From contig JAAUZN010000092.1 in the NCBI GenBank assembly GCA_014804565.1, positions 1-21,687 on the forward strand: a stretch of DNA of 21,687 bases, written 5' to 3'. This stretch comes from Lachnospiraceae bacterium. GTDB lineage: Bacteria; Bacillota; Clostridia; Lachnospirales; Lachnospiraceae. Shown piece by piece: positions 1 to 5,413 of the stretch (within the stretch, counting starts at the first letter, position 1; each line of letters begins with the position of its first letter). The notes beneath the pieces were generated by a model. That model did no database searches. It had not been told where the DNA came from and saw nothing but the letters and a program-made list of their open reading frames with translations. Made by a program: the position numbers and the translations under genes.

Positions 1-460
1 AAATCCCGGCAATCAGGGATGCTCCCTGTTTTACACCGAGTCCTCCATGAATCCCAAAAGCAGCAAACGCTGCCATAAAAGAGAGTACGGTGGCCGGATT
101 TACCAATGCCGTTGTAAATGACGACAGAAAACAAAATGCCAGTGTTCCTTTTGATTCTTTCTGTACTGTTGCCGTCTCCTTTTTGCAAAGGATGCCAAAC
201 CCAAAGAGCAGTACCAGTATTCCTCCAATAACCTGAAGCGTGTTCTGTCTGGTTGATAAAAAGTCCGAAACCACCGTAATGCCAAATACACCCACACAGG
301 AATAAACCAAATCTGCCGCAGAGGAACCCATCCCGGTCAGAAATCCGGCAACAAATCCCTTCTCCAATGTCCTTTCGATTGTCAGTGCGCCAATGGCTCC
401 GGCCGGCACTCCAAATATAAGGCCAATCAGCAGGCCTTTACAAACGTATTCTGCTATCAT
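1..460 (-). CDS. LysE/RhtB-family exporter, C-terminus cut off by window edge
   Basis: The first 153 residues of a multi-pass inner-membrane protein are present; the rest lies beyond base 1. The start MIAEYVCKGLLIGLIFGVPAG is followed by hydrophobic segments at about residues 7-27, 37-57, 68-85 and 105-125. An N-terminal glycine-rich helix with GxPxG and a second helix containing GxGxxxxD-like spacing are typical of LysE/RhtB translocators, which export amino acids or small amides by proton exchange. The ATG overlaps the TGA of the upstream 77-residue gene as ATGA, so the two are translationally coupled and this is the last visible gene of the operon starting at 2934. Family assignment is by pattern recognition; the substrate cannot be read from sequence. 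In this operon the cargo may be the product of the ligase. Confidence 0.75.
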   Translation of the reverse strand, partial: MIAEYVCKGLLIGLIFGVPAGAIGALTIERTLEKGFVAGFLTGMGSSAADLVYSCVGVFGITVVSDFLSTRQNTLQVIGGILVLLFGFGILCKKETATVQKESKGTLAFCFLSSFTTALVNPATVLSFMAAFAAFGIHGGLGVKQGASLIAGI

Positions 461-692: not shown

Positions 693-1562
693 TTACACCG
701 CCTTCTTCTCCGTTTCTGTCCGGAGTATAATCTCCCCTGTACATTCCATGACAGCATCACCCCGGATGATTTCTCCCACGCTATCCGCAATGATCCGGCC
801 GGATTTGGGATTTTTAACGGAAATGATATGGCCTTTCACATCCGCTTCCACATCTGAGTATTCAAAGGACAAATCCGTATCCTCCATTGTGCAATTTACC
901 AGTTTCAGGTTCTTGCAGTAACACAGTGGCTGTGTTCCGATAATCTTACAGTTGATCAGTGTCAAATTCTCAGAAAACCAGCCCAGATATTCGCCTTTCA
1001 CAATGCTGTCCCGCACCGTGACATCTTTGCTGTGCCAGAAAGCATCCTTCGTATCCAGTTCACAGTCATTTATCTCCAGATTTTCCATATACTGGAAGGA
1101 ATATTTCCCTTTCATCTTTACACTGCGCAGTTTCACATCCCGGCTGTCCATAAATAAATACTCAGAAACAATATCCGTATCAATCAGCTCAATGTCCTGG
1201 GACTTCCAGCCAAACTCCTGGGATTCTACCTGACAGCGCTCCAGACAGATATGTGCGCACTCCCGCACTGCCTTGATCCCTCCTAAAACACTGTCTGTGA
1301 TAACACCATTTTCCGCATACCAGATTGCGGCGCGGGTTTTGTCATCCATAGAGGATTCTGACATGGTAAATCCCTTTACGTGCCATAAGGGATAGCGCAG
1401 GGAAAAACGACAGTTTTTAAGTCCCACATCCCCAGACTCTTTCAATACAGATTCCCCATCGGCCGGGCCTGCAAATACACAATCCGTCACATCCGCGTTC
1501 TGCAGATGATACAGCGCCCTCTCCTCATCAAATTGCTTCCCGGTAATGTTTGTTCTTGTCAT
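693..1562 (-). CDS. DUF3737 family parallel beta-helix protein
   Basis: The 289-residue product matches my knowledge of DUF3737: an N-terminal FDEERALYHLQNADVTDCVF block, then KTRAAIWYAENG, followed by repeated short strand units (KDVxLRxxxM, ENLEINDCEL, KDVTVRDSIV, ENLTLINCKI, KNLKLVNCTM) that stack as a right-handed beta-helix. Cysteines and asparagines recur at the same place in successive coils. No signal peptide, so it should be cytoplasmic. The biochemical role of DUF3737 is unknown. The ATG lies inside the end of the ligase gene (35-bp overlap) and has GGAGG nine bases upstream, indicating coupled translation with the ligase. The fold is often used to bind or modify carbohydrate-like ligands, but no catalytic site is recognisable. 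Confidence 0.85.
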   Translation of the reverse strand: MTRTNITGKQFDEERALYHLQNADVTDCVFAGPADGESVLKESGDVGLKNCRFSLRYPLWHVKGFTMSESSMDDKTRAAIWYAENGVITDSVLGGIKAVRECAHICLERCQVESQEFGWKSQDIELIDTDIVSEYLFMDSRDVKLRSVKMKGKYSFQYMENLEINDCELDTKDAFWHSKDVTVRDSIVKGEYLGWFSENLTLINCKIIGTQPLCYCKNLKLVNCTMEDTDLSFEYSDVEADVKGHIISVKNPKSGRIIADSVGEIIRGDAVMECTGEIILRTETEKKAV

Positions 1563-2934
1563 CTTCCTTATCCTCCATCATTTTTATTATTAGTGGTTTT
1601 TTCCCTGTATGCTTATCCGGTATGATCTGTTCCACAAACCGGATCGAAAACTGAATTTCTTCTAAATCTTTGTCTGATAACAGTTTCCTGACATGCCGAT
1701 AAATTTCCTCCGTTACATTCGCTCGATCTGCAGATTCCTCCGCCTCCGCCAACATTTCAAAGGATATTGGGGATGTCTGGTAAAACTGATAATCCAACAA
1801 TCCTACGACGCAAAATCCTTCCATAGACAGAGGATGCAGATACTCCTTACTGCCATCCGGCTTTTCAAACCACAGCACATCCTCATTCCGGCACAGCAGC
1901 ACATCCGCCTTTGTAAAAAAACAGTCTGCATCGTCTTCCGTCTCATGCAAAACAAGTTTGTCAGAAATATGGTAACGAATTAATGGCTGCGTAAAATTGT
2001 ACAGACAGGTTACATACATCTCCCCATCGATCACTTCTATCACATTCAGATCATCAAAGAGAATCATTCCCTCATCCGCCCGTTGCTCCACTCCCAATGC
2101 AAGAGATTCACTTGCACCGTAAAAATTCACCACTTCCGTGTCAAAAGCATTTTCCAAAAACTTGCGCAGGCCGATGCTTAGCGGCTCTCCACAGGAAATT
2201 ATGCGCCTGACATGCAACGTTTCATTCTCACCGCCTGTCTGCTCCGCCAAAATCTTGACAGCAGAAGGATAACCTATAATGATATTGGGGTGAAACTCCA
2301 GTACCACCTCTCTCCATTTTGCCAGCGGTGTATTGATATCCAAAAATCTCTGCTCTGCACGGATACCCCTGATTCCATCGCCCACTGCCATAGCGCCGCC
2401 ATACCTTCCGTCCGTAGCCGCTATGTAAAGGATTCTTGGTTTCTCTGCCAATAATTTTAAGACAGAACCCATGGACATTCCCCAAAGGGCGCCCCTGATA
2501 ATTCCAATCAGCATCTGTTCCCACGCGGCATTATCGTATACAAAATATCTGGGGGTTCCGGTGCTGCCGGAGGAATGTATCACATGATATTTATCAAGAT
2601 AGATTTCTCCGCCATCTTCAGAAGCTTCATCAAACCGAAGCAATTCCTCCTGTTTCAGACTACGATCCGTCACCAGCTCGTCAAAATGTTCCATCAGGAT
2701 TCCTTTATCCAACACAGGAAAATTCTCAAGAGGTGTTCTTCTGATGTTTTCCGGGAAGATTCCCTTCGCCTCAAATACCTTCCTGTAGTAAGGGGAATAT
2801 TCATAGGCAAACAAAAGAAGTTTTTCCAGTTTCTTTTTCTGCAGCCGCTCTATCTGTTCCTTTCTCCTGCCTGCATTTCTTTTCTGCCTGTAAAGATTCC
2901 ACAACAGACGGAAATAATTGATACCTGCAGCCAT
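1528..2934 (-). CDS. PaaK/CapK-like AMP-forming acyl-activating enzyme
   Basis: A 468-residue cytoplasmic adenylate-forming enzyme of the phenylacetate-CoA ligase / coenzyme F390 synthetase / CapK group. The N-terminal helix with PYYRKVF (about 48-54) is typical of this group. The ATP-binding P-loop SSGSTGTP is at 121-128, the adenine-binding FYGASE at 271-276, and the ribose-binding segment PLIRYHISD at 317-325, where PaaK has PIIRYRTGD-like sequence. Such enzymes activate a carboxylate as acyl-AMP and pass it to CoA or to an amine. No ACP domain is present and the substrate is not predictable. Start ATG has AAGGAGGTGACAAGGC directly upstream. It heads the operon with DUF3737, the 77-residue protein and the LysE-like exporter, behind the promoter at 2980-3008. 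Confidence 0.85.
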   Translation of the reverse strand: MAAGINYFRLLWNLYRQKRNAGRRKEQIERLQKKKLEKLLLFAYEYSPYYRKVFEAKGIFPENIRRTPLENFPVLDKGILMEHFDELVTDRSLKQEELLRFDEASEDGGEIYLDKYHVIHSSGSTGTPRYFVYDNAAWEQMLIGIIRGALWGMSMGSVLKLLAEKPRILYIAATDGRYGGAMAVGDGIRGIRAEQRFLDINTPLAKWREVVLEFHPNIIIGYPSAVKILAEQTGGENETLHVRRIISCGEPLSIGLRKFLENAFDTEVVNFYGASESLALGVEQRADEGMILFDDLNVIEVIDGEMYVTCLYNFTQPLIRYHISDKLVLHETEDDADCFFTKADVLLCRNEDVLWFEKPDGSKEYLHPLSMEGFCVVGLLDYQFYQTSPISFEMLAEAEESADRANVTEEIYRHVRKLLSDKDLEEIQFSIRFVEQIIPDKHTGKKPLIIKMMEDKEDDKNKHYREAI

Positions 2935-2979: not shown

Positions 2980-3008
2980 AGTCTACAATCACGAAAACAA
3001 AATAGCAA
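2980..3008 (-). promoter_or_regulatory. Promoter of the ligase operon
   Basis: Read on the minus strand: -35 TTGCTA (plus-strand 3003-3008), 17-bp spacer, -10 TAGACT (plus-strand 2980-2985). The predicted start of transcription is near 2973, giving a leader of about 39 bases before the ATG at 2934. The -35, the exact spacer and the sequence just upstream are shared with the promoter at 4301-4329. Suboptimal hexamers (TTGCTA, TAGACT) fit a promoter that needs an activator. Confidence 0.6.
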
Positions 3009-3050
3009 ATACCTATATCGAATGCATTTGCATAGCATTTGGGAATGTTA
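3002..3050 (-). repeat. Shared regulatory block, copy A (probable LytTR operator)
   Basis: This block aligns without gaps to 4323-4371 at 40 of 49 positions. The invariant parts are a 16-bp core containing the -35 (plus-strand 3002-3017), GAATGC (3020-3025) and GGGAATGTT (3041-3049). The two GAATG units (CATTC on the transcribed minus strand) start 23 bp apart and the nearer one is 11 bp from the -35. LytTR regulators are known to bind pairs of about 9-bp direct repeats separated by roughly 12-13 bp just upstream of -35; here the 9-mers AACATTCCC and TGCATTCGA have a 14-bp gap. The assignment to the neighbouring LytTR protein is inference. Confidence 0.6.
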
Positions 3051-3063
3051 ATCCAAAAATCTA

Positions 3064-4221
3064 TTACTTTGTGATTTGAAAAAAATATGCTACCTCATAA
3101 TTTTCCCTGTGATAATAAGCTGCAGTCAGGGCAGACTGATCAAACACAATGCTCCACTCCGTAGACTCAAACTCTCCAAAATTATCCTTGCTCACACTGT
3201 CTAAGGCATCTCTTACTTCCGCCTGTGTCATGGACGGTTTCTCCGCAATCGTTACTGTTAATATGTCAAATCTCTCGTGGGACTGACTTGTACCGATTCC
3301 CTGCTTTTCTCCCTCCGCCAGATAAAAATTCGTCAGGACAGGCGTCTCCACCACGACCATTTCATTGTCAATATATTCCACAGCCACGCTGTTTCCGGCT
3401 GCATCCGCAATGGCAAAATGAACCATATAATTCATGGAAGCATGGAGGTCATACTGCCCCAACAGATCTAATGCTTCCTCTACTGTAGCTGCCTGATTAA
3501 GCAGCAGGCGGACAGCTGTTGTGGTGGTAATATCCGGCCTATCCGTATCCTGTGAAATCATAGCGCTATCCTGAATCATATTGACGGATATACATAAGCC
3601 CTTCTCATTCATTCCATCCAAAGGTGCGTACAGCGCTGCTATAGTCATCATATCATCGTTTAGCAGACCGCCAGCCATTCCGGCTCCCTGACGGATAAAG
3701 CCCAGGTTTACTGTGGAAACAGAAGCATACCCCTCCTGCGGATAAGATGTGACAACAAGTGCATCACAGGTATTCCAATCAAAGTTCCGCCCAAAAAGAT
3801 AACCGCCCTCTTTATTTTGTACGGAAAAGGTACTGCACCCAAAGGCCCGCGTATTCATGGTCAGACCGCTCCGGCTTTCCGCAAAAAGCTCGCTTACCAA
3901 AAACTGTACAACCTCCTGGTCCGTTTTGGCGCCTCCTCCGGCAAGAAAGGCAGCAAACCCATCTTCCCCTTCATACCGGACGGCAGAAAACCCCTTCTCC
4001 AGCTTCTCTATTTCTGAACTTACCTGTACTGTCACAGCATTATCCTCCAAAACCTCTGTTCCCTCTGACACACCTGGCCGGGCTGGAGAATAACTCTCAT
4101 CCGCATCTGAATCACGCCCTCCGCATCCCATAAGGCTCACTAATAGAATATATGTAATTGCAATAGTCACTAATTTTTTCCGTGTTCCCATTATTTTTTC
4201 TTTTTGTGTGGTATCTGACAT
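3064..4221 (-). CDS. Secreted lipoprotein, linear amide C-N hydrolase (Ntn hydrolase fold)
   Basis: A 385-residue lipoprotein: positive N-terminus, hydrophobic stretch at about 17-31 and a lipobox ending MGC with lipidated Cys33, then a low-complexity linker. The enzyme part resembles the choloylglycine hydrolase / penicillin V acylase / acyl-coenzyme A:6-APA acyltransferase superfamily: nucleophile Cys129 in AFGCSTF, followed by GRNFDW (Arg145, Asp148), GMNEKGLCISVN (Asn205, Asn214), LTNFYL (Asn298) and SHERFDIL (Arg317). Members cut linear amide bonds; many self-process so that the Cys becomes N-terminal, which would here release about 95 residues after the lipid anchor. Start ATG has GAGGAG six bases upstream; an internal Met11 lacks a good site. 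No terminator follows, so reading into the ligase operon is possible. Substrate (bile salt, N-acyl amino acid, beta-lactam, peptide) is not predictable. Confidence 0.82.
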   Translation of the reverse strand: MSDTTQKEKIMGTRKKLVTIAITYILLVSLMGCGGRDSDADESYSPARPGVSEGTEVLEDNAVTVQVSSEIEKLEKGFSAVRYEGEDGFAAFLAGGGAKTDQEVVQFLVSELFAESRSGLTMNTRAFGCSTFSVQNKEGGYLFGRNFDWNTCDALVVTSYPQEGYASVSTVNLGFIRQGAGMAGGLLNDDMMTIAALYAPLDGMNEKGLCISVNMIQDSAMISQDTDRPDITTTTAVRLLLNQAATVEEALDLLGQYDLHASMNYMVHFAIADAAGNSVAVEYIDNEMVVVETPVLTNFYLAEGEKQGIGTSQSHERFDILTVTIAEKPSMTQAEVRDALDSVSKDNFGEFESTEWSIVFDQSALTAAYYHRENYEVAYFFQITK

Positions 4222-4300
4222 ATCGTTCTCCTCACCCCAAAAATTCTTAAAACCAATCCTTTTGCTTATCTCATGGACTTGCTTATTTGCTGCTGTTTTA

Positions 4301-4329
4301 AGTATAAAGCAAGCTTAAAACGATAGCAA
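4301..4329 (-). promoter_or_regulatory. Promoter of the lipoprotein amidase gene
   Basis: Read on the minus strand: -35 TTGCTA (plus-strand 4324-4329), 17-bp spacer, -10 TATACT (plus-strand 4301-4306). Predicted start near 4294, leader about 73 bases to the ATG at 4221. Same -35 and same spacer length as the ligase promoter, with the shared operator block immediately upstream. Confidence 0.6.
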
Positions 4330-4371
4330 ATACCTATACTGAATGCTATTACATTGGTTTTGGGAATGTTT
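4323..4371 (-). repeat. Shared regulatory block, copy B (probable LytTR operator)
   Basis: Partner of 3002-3050 (40/49 identical, no gaps). GAATG units start at plus-strand 4341 and 4364, 23 bp apart, and the nearer is 11 bp from the -35, exactly as in copy A. It lies between the divergent amidase and LytTR genes; its orientation relative to the minus-strand promoter matches copy A, so the amidase promoter is the likelier target. An effect on the plus-strand promoter about 65 bp away is possible. Confidence 0.6.
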
Positions 4372-4435
4372 TAGATATGTGGACTAGCAGCTACGACCAC
4401 TTATATCATGAAAACAGCCGACTGTTGCAAATCTA

Positions 4436-4464
4436 TTGAATGCGCTACCCTTCTGCCCTATAAT
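4436..4464 (+). promoter_or_regulatory. Promoter of the LytTR-DUF3021 operon
   Basis: -35 TTGAAT at 4436-4441, 17-bp spacer, perfect -10 TATAAT at 4459-4464. Predicted start of transcription is near 4471, giving a short leader of about 25 bases containing the AGGTGA ribosome binding site. This placement argues against upstream in-frame starts for the LytTR gene. Confidence 0.6.
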
Positions 4465-4495
4465 GGCATCAGAAATGAAAAGCGAGGTGAAGAAT

Positions 4496-4936
4496 ATGCA
4501 GGTCGAGATCAAGATCGACAGTTCCTATACCGAACCTAAGATACTCATATTTACTGATTCGGTTACAGAAGACATCAACAACATTGTGAAAAAATTGTCA
4601 GAGGATGTTCCGCAGATCATTTCCGGCAGCAGAGACAATAAAATCGAAGTGCTGGATCCCGCAGAACTGATCCGGATCTATGCGAATACAGGAAAAGTTT
4701 TCGCGGTCACGGAGAAAGGGGAATACACTCTGCGCCTCAGACTGTACGAGATAGAAGGACGACTAAACCCTCATCAGTTTGTCCGCATCTCAAATTCAGA
4801 GATCATCAACCTGAACCACGTCAATAACTTTGATCTGAGCTTTACAGGTACGATCTGTGTCAAACTGTCAAACGGAACCATGACATATGTTTCCAGGCGA
4901 TATGTTTCCAAAATTAGAAAAATATTAGGAATGTGA
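4496..4936 (+). CDS. LytTR-domain transcriptional regulator
   Basis: A 146-residue protein with no receiver domain: about 45 N-terminal residues, then a LytTR DNA-binding domain (about 46-145) showing the family pattern IYANTGKVFAVTEKGEY, FVRISNSEIINLNHV and YVSRRYVSKIRKIL. Start ATG has GAGGTGA five bases upstream; an open frame extending back to a TTG at 4436 would begin inside the -35 and is rejected. It is followed after 9 bp by a DUF3021 membrane protein. Such regulator/membrane-protein pairs resemble in layout the LytTR regulatory systems HdrRM and BrsRM of Streptococcus mutans, where the membrane partner restrains the regulator. Probable targets here are the two promoters carrying the 49-bp block. 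Confidence 0.9.
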   Translation: MQVEIKIDSSYTEPKILIFTDSVTEDINNIVKKLSEDVPQIISGSRDNKIEVLDPAELIRIYANTGKVFAVTEKGEYTLRLRLYEIEGRLNPHQFVRISNSEIINLNHVNNFDLSFTGTICVKLSNGTMTYVSRRYVSKIRKILGM

Positions 4937-4945
4937 GGTATGAAT

Positions 4946-5413
4946 ATGAAAAAAAATATTATTTCGCGAAGTCTTATAGGGTTCCCGATTGGAATTATGA
5001 TTGGTTATCTAGAGAGTATCTTTATTTCCCTTATATGGGCGGACGGATATTACTATCCCTGTGTGCCCGAACTAATCAATGTCATGGGAAACGAGATCAA
5101 TGCGGTACTCGTGCAGGCTCTGCTCTGTGGATTAGTGGGCGTTGGATTTTCAGGAGGTTCCGTAATATGGGAAGTGGAGCGCTGGAGTATTGTGGTACAG
5201 ACCGGCATATATTTCGCTGTCACTGCCTTAATCATGATGCCCACTGCCTATTTCATGTACTGGATGGGGCACAGCCTGAAGGGATTTTTAAGCTATTTCG
5301 GGATTTTTGTTCTGATCTTTGCCGTCGTGTGGATCATACAGTATATGATAGGAAGGTACATCGTCAAAAAATTAAACACGAATCTGCAAAAGACAAAGGG
5401 TGTCTCGCAATAA
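4946..5413 (+). CDS. DUF3021 family membrane protein, likely partner of the LytTR regulator
   Basis: A 155-residue integral membrane protein with four hydrophobic segments (about 8-30, 46-66, 79-101 and 110-133) and a basic C-terminal tail, as in DUF3021. Two starts are possible: ATG 4940 or ATG 4946 two codons later. GAGG at 4935-4938 is seven bases from the second and only one from the first, so 4946 is preferred. The gene follows the LytTR stop almost directly. DUF3021 proteins are regularly found next to LytTR regulators and are thought to control them at the membrane; the signal is unknown. The stop codon lies in the loop of the terminator hairpin at 5398-5424. Confidence 0.85.
   Translation: MKKNIISRSLIGFPIGIMIGYLESIFISLIWADGYYYPCVPELINVMGNEINAVLVQALLCGLVGVGFSGGSVIWEVERWSIVVQTGIYFAVTALIMMPTAYFMYWMGHSLKGFLSYFGIFVLIFAVVWIIQYMIGRYIVKKLNTNLQKTKGVSQ

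Follow-up and report, generated by a model that had tools for sequence, protein, structure and literature searches.

Two matching promoter blocks beside a LytTR gene as predicted operators of one LysR-type regulator in Lachnospiraceae

Two blocks and the genes behind them

In a Lachnospiraceae draft genome, nearly the same block of 49 bp precedes an amidase gene and an operon that begins with a gene for an AMP-forming ligase, and a gene for a LytTR regulator starts 124 bp from the second copy. Which regulator do these blocks serve? A sequence-only reading of the window, i.e., of the whole stretch of 21,687 nucleotides that was analysed, had proposed that both transcription units are activated by the LytTR protein through the GAATG direct repeats of the blocks. 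Our comparisons of sequences make it very probable instead (roughly 0.92) that the two blocks serve as operators for a single LysR-type regulator, encoded just outside the window, and not for the neighbouring LytTR protein. The observations behind this view are the conservation of the sites, the geometry of the promoters, the co-occurrence and linkage of the sites with the LysR gene, and the sequence of the operator that precedes the LytTR gene.

When the window is compared with itself, the two blocks align without gaps at 40 of 49 positions, which is its best same-strand match of 49-mers, and the best matches in three Markov-1 windows reach 31-32. In both blocks, GAATG units start 23 bp apart (3020/3043 and 4341/4364), TTGCTA lies 11 bp on from the nearer unit and the -10 follows at 17 bp, which confirms the pairing noticed earlier. 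The genome search suggested at that time, for GAATG-N18-GAATG with TTGCTA 11 bp from the nearer repeat, was run with the shorter TTGC: on the minus strand, CATTC-N18-CATTC-N11-TTGC is exact at both blocks, and at up to one mismatch the sole further match in the draft genome is C20:1270-1312, in a second copy of the locus on contig C20. A longer block pattern with up to three mismatches likewise finds only the two blocks and contig C20 in the 3.1-Mb draft genome, and it is found in none of 100 shuffles of the window. Because the sequences flanking the blocks show 23-37% identity over 60 and 100 bp, the pair does not reflect a duplication of the region, tandem duplication having been rejected before as well; furthermore, both copies are kept separately in three relatives (G066, G018, and G063).

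Table 1. Features of the window and their coordinates.
Feature	Position	Strand	Remarks
LysE-type translocator	2-460	-	PF01810; cut by window edge
Conserved cluster protein, 95 aa	457-744	-	no Pfam or NCBIfam family
DUF3737 protein	693-1562	-	PF12541, 1.5e-113
AMP-forming ligase related to F390 synthetase/PaaK	1528-2934	-	gene 1 of ligase operon; PF00501; TIGR02304 below its cut-off
Ligase operon promoter	2980-3008	-	-35 TTGCTA 3008-3003, 17 bp, -10 TAGACT 2985-2980
Block 1, predicted LysR-type operator and promoter of ligase operon	3002-3050	-	PWM score 64.8, itself a PWM seed
Block 1, upstream dyad	3046-3043 / 3035-3032	-	ATTC / CTAT
Block 1, register A	3023-3020 / 3012-3009	-	ATTC / GTAT
Block 1, register B	3016-3013 / 3005-3002	-	ATAG / CTAT
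C45/choloylglycine-hydrolase-type amidase	3064-4221	-	PF02275, PF03417; NF040521 above cut-off
Amidase promoter	4301-4329	-	-35 TTGCTA 4329-4324, 17 bp, -10 TATACT 4306-4301
Block 2, predicted LysR-type operator of amidase gene	4323-4371	-	PWM score 60.3, itself a PWM seed
Block 2, upstream dyad	4367-4364 / 4356-4353	-	ATTC / CAAT (imperfect, not CTAT)
Block 2, register A	4344-4341 / 4333-4330	-	ATTC / GTAT
Block 2, register B	4337-4334 / 4326-4323	-	ATAG / CTAT
LRS operator of LytTR operon	4396-4425	+	ACCACTTAT (4396-4404), 12 bp, GCCGACTGT (4417-4425)
LytTR operon promoter	4436-4464	+	TTGAAT, 17 bp, TATAAT; 10 bp after LRS repeats
LytTR regulator without receiver domain	4496-4936	+	PF04397, 7.1e-23, only Pfam match
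DUF3021 protein, predicted LRS partner of LytTR regulator	4940-5413	+	PF11457, 3.4e-31

By eye, the N-terminus of the amidase is lipoprotein-like. Our guess from the protein families of the cluster (amidase, AMP-ligase, transporters, aldo-keto reductase) is that it might handle an amide or acyl compound. Literature searches for DUF3737, for choloylglycine hydrolase with LysR and Lachnospiraceae, and for LysR with Lachnospiraceae, operator, and amidase found nothing.

The LytTR-DUF3021 operon and its operator

LytTR regulators recognize direct repeats located immediately before the -35, and the LRS class combines a LytTR regulator without receiver domain with a subsequent DUF3021 or DUF2154 membrane protein; in LRS operators, the 9-bp repeats are mostly separated by 12 bp and tend to lie 10 bp upstream of the -35 (PMC6193735, in the portion available). 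This habit of binding and the short distance of the gene from block 2 speak for the LytTR protein as regulator of the blocks. A domain search identifies a LytTR-DUF3021 gene pair at 4496-5413, and the region upstream (4396-4464) has the layout ACCACTTAT-12-GCCGACTGT-10-TTGAAT-17-TATAAT, i.e., 9-12-9 direct repeats about 10 bp before the -35. Judged by this layout, the LytTR-DUF3021 operon has an operator of its own and would be a separate LRS, a class in which the membrane protein inhibits the regulator and the operon is under positive autoregulation.

By counting of mismatches, this operator is present with at most 3 of 20 in 21 of the 22 LytTR loci (20 from the genus and two from other families of the order), the remaining locus, L151, having 5; a strict regular expression finds it in 13 of the 22. 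Shuffled upstream regions (1100, of up to 330 bp) show 4-10 mismatches, mostly 7-9, with 4 as the best. Across the genome, the operator at 4396 is the best match with 0 mismatches and the next place has 3. As a second place with at most 2 mismatches was not found in the genome, the LytTR regulon may comprise only the operon itself, or it may use diverged sites. The two blocks differ from this operator, showing 8-10 mismatches of 20 to the LRS consensus on either strand over 91-96 bp, the same as shuffled DNA. LytTR-bound direct repeats would be 9 bp long, separated by a spacer of 11-13 bp, and placed before a -35, whereas the repeats of the blocks start 23 bp apart, compared with 20-22 bp in the accessible text of PMC6193735.

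A LysR-type gene and its sites in relatives

Positions 4316-1 of the window (contig C92) correspond to 1-4316 of contig C20 (L046) with 98.8% identity over 4316 bp, and C20 continues past the left end of the window; the presence of the locus on both contigs of the draft genome is likely due to two strains in one assembly. A LysR gene that is divergent from the amidase gene in a relative (G006) leads to its counterpart at C20:5100-5987, which encodes a protein of 295 aa with HTH_1 and LysR_substrate domains (Pfam). By sequence, BenM is the closest solved relative of this LysR. The gene is encoded on the opposite strand and converges on the ligase operon. Past lysE follow a gene for a cyclophilin-like lipoprotein, lysR, and, transcribed away from lysR, an ABC exporter; the short lysR/ABC gap contains a weaker site (C20:6005-6052, 25.4 bits). 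As placed on C20, the only contig on which it is seen, lysR lies 0.8-1.7 kb beyond the left end of the window, next to the distal end of the ligase operon and beyond the edge of the window's own contig, and was missed earlier because it lies outside the window. For a paralogous LysR on C4 (43% identical to the L092 LysR query), no site above 14 bits was found in the locus of 18.5 kb.

A PWM was built from 12 seeds of our own choosing and used to scan 40 LysR loci, taken from named records, most of them metagenome assemblies, whose titles point to Lachnospiraceae and other Clostridia, with Longibaculum muris in addition; to judge from the names, these would be gut bacteria. The scan finds 74 sites above 14 bits in 39 of the 40 loci and in 0 of 40 Markov shuffles. 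Four of the seeds lie within these loci, and a PWM rebuilt without them returns the same 39 loci and 74 sites. L209, the one locus in which the scan finds no site, is a fragment of 3.5 kb that retains 34 LysR residues. All 74 sites either have a same-strand cluster gene within 900 bp or are situated at a divergent lysR promoter (34 sites); for the other 40, the nearest downstream cluster gene codes for the amidase (14), the MATE exporter (9), the ligase (7), DUF3737 (5), the lipoprotein (4), or the ABC exporter (1). A LytTR gene is present in one of the 40 LysR loci (L208), and 27 of them extend at least 7 kb beyond lysR on that side, its absence from shorter ones being uninformative. LytTR orthologs that have no block beside them were covered by 28 stretches, some of which overlap, and only one of these stretches exceeds 14 bits (L045, 17.5).

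Alignment of the 73 distinct sites above 30 bits gives the consensus.cATTCcTAaAA.CTATgcAAatacATTC.ATATAg.TATTTGCTATt, in which three T-N11-A dyads can be recognized, the last one covering the -35. The upstream dyad (ATTC-N7-CTAT) is centred 30 bp from the -35 dyad (ATAG-N7-CTAT), and the third dyad (ATTC-N7-GTAT), which overlaps the latter, has its centre 7 bp nearer, i.e., 23 bp from the first. T-N11-A is kept in 73 of 73 upstream dyads, 67 of 73 middle registers, and 72 of 73 -35 dyads, and TTG in 73 of 73, counts that are not independent because the dyad bases belong to the PWM by which the sites were selected. An independent check is offered by the -10, which is not in the PWM: TAnnnT is found exactly 17 bp from the -35 in 64 of the 73 sites, and in 0-5 of 73 at seven other offsets. 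LysR regulators are tetramers that occupy a T-N11-A site near -65 and a second site near -35 (PMC5603801, available part). If transcription starts 7 bp after the -10, the centres of the outer dyads would lie near -66 and -36, which resembles this arrangement.

The GAATG repeats are present at the spacing reported earlier, although they are not the conserved core. The CATTC/GAATG pair represents the left half-sites of the first two dyads, both of which read ATTC in 46 of 73 sites, and the -35 dyad (ATAG/ATAA-N7-CTAT/TTAT) is better kept across relatives. A second LysR clade (44-47% identity) is encoded beside the amidase and has the same site layout; the left half of its upstream dyad is ATAG or ATGC, and its middle register starts with AT but, as judged by eye, not with ATTC at amidase promoters. 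As the left halves differ in this way, the direct repeat belongs to the first clade and not to the core. In the -35 dyad, the two halves show weak compensatory change (pairs 35/43: GC 40, AC 15, GT 7, AT 7, GA 3, TC 1), which for this reason was not used as evidence. A larger regulon in this genome was also considered and rejected. Searched alone with at most one mismatch, the -35 dyad gives 7 genome matches, 3 of them exact, compared with 6 for a reversed control, which is the level of chance. At the four further places, each with one mismatch, the PWM found no site (best -4.4 bits), and longer stretches around two of them had none either.

Among 77 genomes of the genus, which are related to one another and in many cases incomplete, the block pattern is present in 13, a close ortholog of LysR (at least 81% identity) in 14, and a LytTR ortholog in 20. 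Block and LysR occur together in 12 genomes (Fisher 3e-11). Block and LytTR coincide in 9 of the 13 block genomes, which is above chance (Fisher 4e-4) and favours a role of LytTR; however, the presence of LysR and LytTR correlates as well (Fisher 9e-4), so that the co-occurrence of block and LytTR may reflect shared ancestry. Beyond this residual association, the presence of blocks does not track the LytTR gene: four block genomes lack a LytTR ortholog (G027, G084, G092, and G032), three of which are at least 94% complete, and 11 of the 20 LytTR genomes lack the block. The LytTR gene adjoins the block in only three of the nine genomes that have both (G000, G018, and G066) and is situated on a different contig in the other six. 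LysR and block share a contig in 9 of 12 genomes, in keeping with the linkage of LysR-type genes to their targets, from which they are often divergent. In the remaining three (G018, G083, and G084) contig ends are nearby, and a split assembly is the likely cause of the separation. Two LysR genomes missed by the pattern carry weaker sites, G093 before the MATE gene (PWM 35.8) and G087 beside lysR (45.3), and therefore all 14 LysR genomes have a site. The one block genome without a LysR match at E 1e-70, G086, has an orphan block-like site (L158, 9436-9483) surrounded by only distant matches (23-39%) to cluster proteins, which is probably a remnant.

Relatives of the amidase are encoded in 27 of the 77 genomes (E 1e-30 or better). 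The block precedes the amidase or ligase gene in six (G066, G018, G063, G081, G062, and G027), the equivalent of block 1 being located upstream of the ligase gene in G066, G018, and G063, and it precedes the MATE exporter gene in G066, G018, G063, G084, and others. The comparison of related genomes, which the sequence-only reading had called for, thus finds the block upstream of orthologous genes, as expected of one local regulon common to both operons, yet with a distribution that follows LysR more than LytTR. G063 contains two copies of the cluster (L097 on C111 and L079 on C15), each with its own LysR and operators; on C111, the MATE gene seems to be followed by no more than a fragment of the amidase.

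Proposed regulon, other readings, and known systems

The amidase gene and the ligase operon probably form one local regulon under the control of LysR. In full, this regulon would comprise the amidase, which in relatives is joined by the MATE exporter, as well as the operon for ligase, DUF3737, LysE, and lipoprotein and the ABC exporter encoded divergently from lysR. A LysR tetramer might anchor one of its dimers on the upstream dyad. If no effector is bound, the second dimer would occupy the -35 dyad and block the -35; with effector, it would slide 7 bp back, and polymerase could start or would even be helped to do so. Here we infer the binding of LysR, the slide, the sign of control, the effector, and which register represses. 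On a tentative view, the cluster is an uncharacterised Lachnospiraceae LysR regulon with a two-position switch built into its promoters (overlapping dyads 7 bp apart, one of them over the -35). Its signal might be an amide or acyl compound on which a C45 amidase at the surface, an AMP-ligase, and as many as three transporters (MATE, LysE, and ABC) act. Since the divergent control region is shared with the LRS in three genomes, the two sensory systems could cross-talk there.

Block 2 seems to have a history of its own. Relatives (G066, G018, G063, and G084) have a MATE gene between block 2 and the amidase gene that is missing in this genome, where a junction with a 5-bp overlap is found at 4176-4180 and about 14 first codons of the amidase ORF derive from the MATE gene; an identical MATE-amidase fusion is present on C20. 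The junction likely marks a deletion, which is more plausible than insertion elsewhere because several relatives have the gene. With the MATE gene lost here, block 2 was probably once the promoter of a MATE-amidase operon.

Among other readings, the one that survives best is compatible with control by LysR. It supposes that LysR acts on block 2 and that LytTR, bound at 4396-4425, also affects the amidase promoter wherever the LRS adjoins (three genomes). The LRS operator begins 24 bp beyond block 2, and both lie within one divergent region of 274 bp (4222-4495); however, only 3 of the 20 LytTR genomes of the genus show this arrangement, block 1 has no LRS neighbour, and no sequence feature requires an interaction, and we consider such dual control rather unlikely. 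Very improbable is a conserved strong promoter or UP element without dedicated regulator. The block does contain a -35 and an A/T-rich stretch upstream of it, but an element of ordinary promoters would be expected throughout the genome, whereas this one occurs at two places and on the duplicate contig, all sites in the 40 LysR loci go with a single gene cluster and its lysR, and the dyads keep their spacing of 30 bp. Least probable of all, to the point of being nearly dismissed, is activation of both units by LytTR through the GAATG repeats, a protein with a different operator of its own and a gene that block genomes can lack.

The LysR reading provides a predicted regulator and a testable operator code for a conserved cluster (C45 amidase, DUF3737, cyclophilin-like lipoproteins, and transporters) and sets this cluster apart from the neighbouring LRS. 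With 73 natural sites aligned, it could also be tested how LysR tetramers move from one overlapping site to another. The case also teaches that proximity and a direct repeat can indicate the wrong regulator.

With regard to known systems, the HdrRM and BrsRM LRS resemble the LytTR-DUF3021 operon of the window, with 9-12-9 repeats 10 bp before the -35 (PMC6193735, as far as its available text goes), a likeness that concerns this neighbouring operon and not the 49-bp blocks. CcpC at citB (ATAA/TTAT boxes, with a dyad near -66 and a half-dyad near -30; PMC8514465, accessible portion) is likewise a LysR-type regulator of Firmicutes, and its A/T-rich dyad at about -66 is also combined with a second element close to the -35. 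In the sites described here, this second element differs in being a complete dyad that spans the -35 and is overlapped by an additional register. BenM and CatM shift between two downstream sites on binding of effector (PMC6628147, in the part at hand). Their operators (Sites 1, 2, and 3; ATAC-N7-GTAT) also consist of T-N11-A dyads of the 4-N7-4 type, with an upstream anchor and two alternative downstream sites. In contrast to ATAC/GTAT of BenM and CatM, the half-sites here are ATTC/CTAT and ATAG/CTAT, and the LysR regulator belongs to Lachnospiraceae and would serve at least three predicted promoters within one cluster.
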